This document shows positions 1,298 through 1,560 of a stretch of DNA of 22,524 nt, piece after piece. Numbering within the stretch: the stretch's first letter is position 1; every line of letters starts with the position of its first letter. A model generated the notes under the pieces. It was not told the DNA's origin, ran no database searches, and was given only the letters and a program-made list of their open reading frames with translations. Position numbers and translations under genes: made by a program. The stretch spans positions 1-22,524 of IMG/VR virus record IMGVR_UViG_3300050015_000148; one strand, 5' to 3'. Origin of the DNA: a virus.

Positions 1298-1560
1298 TGT
1301 TATGGAAGTAGGCTTAGAAGCAGCCATCTTTAATGAATGATTCGTCCTTCTCTCATATACCCAGGTGGAATTAACCACATGGATGACCCCGAATTCCGAT
1401 CACGGGATTTCTATATTTTAGTAAAATAAAATCCAAGAGCCTTTGCGGAAGGGAATAAGATATGGAGCAATTCGTAAAGTCGAATGAGGGCTACCGAATA
1501 AGAAGTGGCAGGTTAATATAAACATTGATCTGATCTTTAGCGTAACAGCACGCCATAACA
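1298..1560 (+). ncRNA. ncRNA with a split copy of the 23S rRNA GTPase-associated centre
   Basis: The closing helix is TGTTATGG (1298-1305) with CCATAACA (1553-1560). Inside the 5' strand, GGCTTAGAAGCAGCCATC (1311-1328) equals the universally conserved H43 hairpin of 23S rRNA (E. coli about 1062-1079, with the A1067 loop). Inside the 3' strand, AGCGTAACAGC (1539-1549) matches the H44 loop containing A1095. In the ribosome these two are nearly adjacent and bind protein L11 (uL11) and the translational GTPases. Here about 210 nt with several hairpins (for example ATTCG/CGAAT) are inserted between them. It shares GGCAGGTTAATAT with the ncRNA at 7650. Probably a ribosome mimic that could bind L11, but the role is unproven. 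Confidence 0.8.

Follow-up and report, generated by a model that had tools for sequence, protein, structure and literature searches.

A phage RNA with the fold of the ribosomal GTPase-associated centre, found among phage tRNAs, and its possible role as a decoy for uL11

We asked what kind of RNA, if any, is encoded in a non-coding gap of a viral tRNA cluster (positions 1298-1560 of the window), and what use a phage might make of it. The window, a stretch of 22,524 nucleotides from IMG/VR virus record IMGVR_UViG_3300050015_000148, carries PhoH, DNA methyltransferase and HNH genes together with 8 tRNAs detected by ARAGORN, of which tRNA-Glu begins 11 nt downstream of the gap. A first-pass annotation had read the gap as a phage RNA copying the L11-binding centre of 23S rRNA, split by a 210-nt insert, and had suggested that it could capture L11, act on RelA or the GTPases, or be a mobile remnant of rRNA. 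The H42, H43 and H44 helices of the GTPase-associated centre (GAC) of 23S rRNA are all present with their conserved loops, H43 being split from H44 by a domain of ~200 nt, and in E. coli numbering the element corresponds to 23S 1055-1104 with every GAC element in order (Table 1): P1 TGTTATGG, H43 GGCTTAGAAGCAGCC, ATC, TTTAATGAATG, the 197-nt domain, TTTA, H44 GCGTAACAGC, ACG and P1' CCATAACA. The two conserved 23S loops noticed at first pass were recovered as GGCTTAGAAGCAGCCATC (1311-1328, + strand) and GCGTAACAGC (1540-1549, + strand), the 8-bp H42-like stem of TGTTATGG and CCATAACA bounds exactly 1298-1560, and the insert corresponds to a 211-nt gap between ATC and GCG, 197 nt of which lie inside a closing stem of their own.

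Table 1 Features of the GAC-like element and the adjoining tRNA gene in the window.
Feature	Position	Strand	Remark
P1 (H42-like outer stem), 5' strand TGTTATGG	1298..1305	+	8 bp with 1553-1560
H43 copy: helix base, U1060 (1309), A1061 (1310), A1067 loop GGCTTAGAAGCAGCC (1311-1325), ATC	1306..1328	+	15 nt identical to Salmonella 23S H43
1080-1090 segment TTTAATGAAT with G1087 (1335) and A1088 (1336)	1329..1338	+	invariant A1088/U1060 in relatives, 1082-1086 covariation
P3 insert domain, 197 nt, in the H43/H44 interval	1339..1535	+	closing stem covaries in relatives
P3 closing pairs: G1339-C1535, A1340-T1534, T1341-A1533, T1342-G1532	window	+	
Linker TTTA, phage-specific (consensus UUUG)	1536..1539	+	UUU[G/A] before H44 in ~95% of 105 members; linker counts from 3'-pattern loci are not independent, the linker being part of the 3' search pattern
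H44 hairpin GCGTAACAGC, A1095 loop	1540..1549	+	position and sequence class identical to 23S 1091-1100
P1, 3' strand CCATAACA	1553..1560	+	partner of 1298-1305
tRNA-Glu(CTC)	1572..1646	+	ARAGORN and Rfam; same strand as the RNA

The absence of compensatory changes in homologues would, on the first-pass reading, have spoken against such an RNA; they were looked for and found. Across 36 diverse members, standard pairs filled 90.7% of cells compared with 64.0% when partners were shuffled, both sides had changed in 256 cells (89 with shuffled partners), and the pairing signal was lost at every sliding of the partners. P1 covaries at 10 of 10 counted pairs in relatives; as these members had been picked partly for having P1, the test was repeated without a stem criterion on loci found by the 5' pattern, where the outer stem scored >=6 in 68%, against 3.9% for mismatched partners. 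Signals independent of the selection were equally clear at the 1058-1080 pair, which occurs as AU, UA, GC and CG in relatives, at the 1082-1086 pair and at the stem closing P3. The closing stem of P3 is paired in 91% of cells, with both-side changes at 4 of 4 pairs, whilst the tertiary pair U1060-A1088 is U-A in 71 of 71 regular members, with which window positions 1309 and 1336 agree. Where one nucleotide is missing downstream of H43, as in the window, another is missing between P1 and H43, so that a whole base pair has been lost: compared with most relatives, H43 in the window lacks one nucleotide on each strand, a paired deletion common to L041, L090, L199 and others. The 1082-1086 pair, found as CG, UA and AU and paired in 89% of members, is T/T in the window, within this shortened segment. 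Folding energy of the window element is weak evidence by itself (z=-1.48), and a covariance model built only from relatives found the window at E=3e-5; the Salmonella 23S GAC scores 47 bits with the phage-RNA covariance model. Dozens of divergent homologues with compensatory changes lend strong support to the view that the phage RNA copies the L11-binding centre.

Could the element instead be a piece of a 23S gene that has decayed or moved, or contamination of viral contigs by host rRNA? The 15-nt identity in H43 points that way, and true 23S pieces do exist among 'phage' records, for example in the deposited record of Paenibacillus phage Pd_22F (L238), which holds real-looking 23S rRNA without the insert and was rejected as a member. 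The covariation refutes this explanation, however, as P1 and P3 covary independently, and with an invariant tertiary pair and complete isolate phage genomes carrying the element it is hardly credible; the mobile rRNA remnant proposed at first pass is contradicted by the same covarying outer stem, by the second stem that closes the insert and by the lack of any other 23S segment. The GAC alone of 23S is copied: there were 187 GAC matches, the remainder being short and scattered, and beyond these no further segments that would embed the element in a 23S gene were found. With Rfam 15, the window and about 25 loci returned tRNAs only at the gathering cut-off and no family for the element, and in a scan at permissive E-values LSU models matched the GAC below the cut-off in L029 and pf16 (LSU_rRNA_bacteria against L029: LSU 1084-1153, E=3.7e-6).

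The phage RNA shares with the 23S GAC (E. coli 1051-1108; LSU H42-H44, the uL11 site) the H43 and H44 loop sequences, the 1055-1104 pair, the non-canonical 1056/1103 pairing, 1082-1086 and U1060-A1088, but differs in being a separate gene with its own outer stem and no other rRNA, in the P3 domain of ~17 to >600 nt in the 5' strand of H44, in the UUUG linker and in a variable A1067. In the members H44 does not directly follow H43; the 23S spacing was found only at L010 (3700-3790), a GAC-like element with its own stem and no P3 insert, possibly a minimal version. No report of a viral RNA copying the GTPase centre was found in the open-access literature, and the novelty of the element holds only within the reach of that literature and Rfam 15.

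The search for homologues suggested at first pass returned 148 distinct elements, from an H43 pattern scan, a 3' pattern scan and two further scans, against 0 for the same detector on reversed sequence; 124 of them have cores <80% identical. The exact H43 pattern occurred in at least 119 stretches of viral contigs, and among the non-identical ones nearly all had the unusual layout and almost none was ordinary 23S. The independent 3' pattern (H44 with the phage linker) was present in 110 viral stretches and, across 84,980 prokaryote genomes, in 24 stretches; two of the prokaryote matches examined, L206 and L225, have phage genes next to them (for a tail fibre protein; for a phage RNA-binding protein and for methyltransferases). 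Outside the GAC core, the window insert resembles no other member among the 148 elements, and no close relatives of the window phage were found via two of its proteins. Matches in plasmids had mostly the appearance of 23S rRNA and were set aside, the exception being a 909-kb 'plasmid' of Pseudomonas sp. FeN3W (CP136011; L239 2480-2795), in which the same RNA lies between tRNAs with a P1 of ~16 bp; this extrachromosomal element is perhaps a giant phage, or related to phages. A match in LR756511 had the 3' motif alone and was rejected.

Cultured phages are among the carriers, namely the isolates pf16, UNO-G1W1, 4_4572, Milchi, Astolliot, XacN1, GAP32, CBB and BF, seven Erwinia phages, XbC2 and XaC1, the hosts being Pseudomonas, Aeromonas, Xanthomonas, Erwinia, Serratia, Cronobacter and Pectobacterium. 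The records hold no RNA annotation of the element, and in the isolate records opened its site was unannotated or overlapped by a small antisense 'hypothetical protein'; those over the RNA at L234 3029-3160 and L232 3072-3179 (Milchi, UNO-G1W1) are probably spurious.

Elements with a tRNA <=500 nt away lie without exception on the tRNA strand (90 of 90; in a smaller set, 72 of 72 at <=300 nt), as would be expected if the RNA were co-transcribed with the tRNAs and excised among them. Only 5 of the 148 elements have an open sense frame, so the element is not protein-coding, and no r-protein gene is annotated beside it in the isolate records examined. The tight same-strand adjacency would also suit an RNA that holds phage tRNAs or their precursors, be it to process, store or package them, and whether or not uL11 takes part. 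On the ribosome the GAC loops contact the elbow of the A/T tRNA, which is the basis for this explanation. The L11 stalk contacts the tRNA elbow in RelA complexes (PMC4974054), and a tRNA-holding role has been proposed for the GOLLD and ROOL cages (PMC12286853). Adjacency may, however, reflect no more than the transcription unit, A1067 as the base that contacts the elbow is not strictly conserved and some members are without a nearby tRNA, and we regard a role in tRNA handling as quite unlikely. Like the phage RNA, the ornate GOLLD and ROOL RNAs are phage-encoded, structured and often near tRNA islands (PMC12286853), whereas the phage RNA has no Rfam match (window and about 25 loci), is mostly smaller and has a copy of an rRNA domain as its core. 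The T4 RNAs C and D are also stable non-tRNA RNAs of a tRNA cluster, on the tRNA strand; as relatives they were rejected, having no GAC motif and no significant covariance-model match (best E=1.5).

The fold-holding residues of the core are fixed and the exposed contact base is variable. Members found by the 3' pattern, which leaves H43 unconstrained, have A at position 1067 in 36 cases, G in 9 and C in 2 (replaced in 11 of 47), whilst in members found by the 5' pattern A1096 is replaced in 17 of 57 (by G in 16), 1097 is open, and 1092-1094 and 1098-1100 are invariant. In 23S, A1067 is the base contacted by thiostrepton and by factors. Its replacement in ~1/4 of members argues that the fold, not that contact, is under the strongest selection, and we infer that a fixed fold with a variable A1067 points to a protein partner recognising the fold, as uL11 does in the ribosome, more than to strict factor contacts or contacts of the thiostrepton kind. 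That the RNA itself binds translational GTPases or RelA directly, with no part for uL11, is very improbable: the GAC does belong to the factor-binding site of the 50S subunit, but factor sites also involve the sarcin-ricin loop and the L12 stalk, and the phage RNA copies no other 23S segment and has as its P1 an ordinary helix of ~8-16 bp with no identified L10-binding motif.

The interior of P3 differs among subfamilies, one of which has a terminal hairpin, CACC-CCGUAAMUGGUAAGG, whose distance from the 3' end is constant, and another a common UGCGAAA...UGAUGUGCC. The GGAATTAAC hairpin was considered as a conserved element of the insert and was put down to chance, being carried by only 2 loci. 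A second hairpin sits in the 1077-1078 bulge of H43 in L122, L139, L146, L155, L157, L164, L170, L174, L178, L194 and L203.

Comparative sequence establishes how the phage RNA folds, how widely phages carry it, that it occurs in the context of tRNAs and that it is independent of real rRNA. L11 capture or action on RelA or the GTPases, as suggested at first pass, is plausible, and we consider it somewhat probable that the element acts in trans as a structured non-coding RNA of the phage, whose GAC-fold core presents a free uL11 site and serves as a decoy for host uL11. That a new and widespread class of phage non-coding RNA mimicking the GAC captures uL11, and so uncouples RelA or translation factors, falls just short of probable, and a version directed at RelA in particular appears unlikely. 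The RNA would probably be transcribed with the phage tRNAs on the same strand and freed by tRNA processing, its 3' end being produced by RNase P cleavage of tRNA-Glu(CTC); it would then offer a free uL11-binding site and, in the infected cell, draw uL11 or complexes bound by it away from the host, whilst the P3 insert may be a variable add-on for stability, oligomerisation or a second partner. A phage tRNA array, or damage to host tRNAs, may cause uncharged tRNAs to meet ribosomes, and, as the most attractive consequence, a uL11 decoy made from the tRNA transcript could lessen RelA activation by these tRNAs and blunt the alarm, since RelA depends on uL11 for its activation on the ribosome; the N-terminus of uL11 is necessary for this activation and touches the A/R tRNA (PMC4974054).

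Known RNAs offer partial parallels to the proposed uL11 decoy. OLE RNA is likewise non-coding and proposed to sequester an r-protein, RpsU (PMC12286853), but is bacterial and involves another protein and another fold. Autoregulatory r-protein leaders with the uL1 site are, like the phage RNA, extra-ribosomal mimics of a 23S r-protein site (PMC10931766), but act in cis on r-protein mRNAs, whereas the phage RNA lies among tRNAs. Counting against the uL11 decoy, the insert enters H44 near the uL11 site and could be an obstacle to binding, A1067 and A1096 are replaced at the frequencies given above, each where free to vary, and a few members (XacN1, GAP32, XbC2) lie in an intergenic gap that is not surrounded by a dense tRNA array. 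Furthermore, uL11 is mostly ribosome-bound, which means that a decoy would have to be very abundant or act on new uL11.

A different target was also considered, in which the RNA lures away a host effector, toxin or nuclease directed at, or sensing, the ribosomal GTPase centre by offering it an alternative target of phage origin, in analogy to phage tRNAs that substitute for tRNAs cut by anticodon nucleases. The genomic company shared with phage tRNAs is consistent with such a role, every fold-defining residue is kept, as a decoy would require, and the variable P3 could protect or tether it. A1067, the most exposed base, varies, however, and no defence system directed at H43/H44 is known to us, which counts against an effector decoy; we judge it unlikely.

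The widespread occurrence of the RNA in tailed phages, mostly in their tRNA clusters, suggests that phages may disturb host translation or starvation signalling by an RNA decoy. If true, RNA mimicry of the ribosome would be a strategy of viral takeover or counter-defence, and this would be, as far as could be told, the first viral RNA copying a ribosomal functional centre. As the carriers include cultured phages, the uL11 and stringent-response hypotheses are testable at once, and the elements provide both a concrete lead on the non-tRNA RNAs of phage tRNA islands and, for one of the best studied tertiary folds of RNA, a set of 124 natural variants.

The tRNAs of the window phage look divergent, and tRNA-like genes missed by ARAGORN lie at window positions 1690-1766, 2897-3013, 3020-3107 and 3200-3282, that at 2897-3013 apparently having a long extra segment in the anticodon region. 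Genes for HNH or homing-type endonucleases occur in or near the tRNA cluster at 227-808, 2425-2841, 4879-5370 and 15785-16531.
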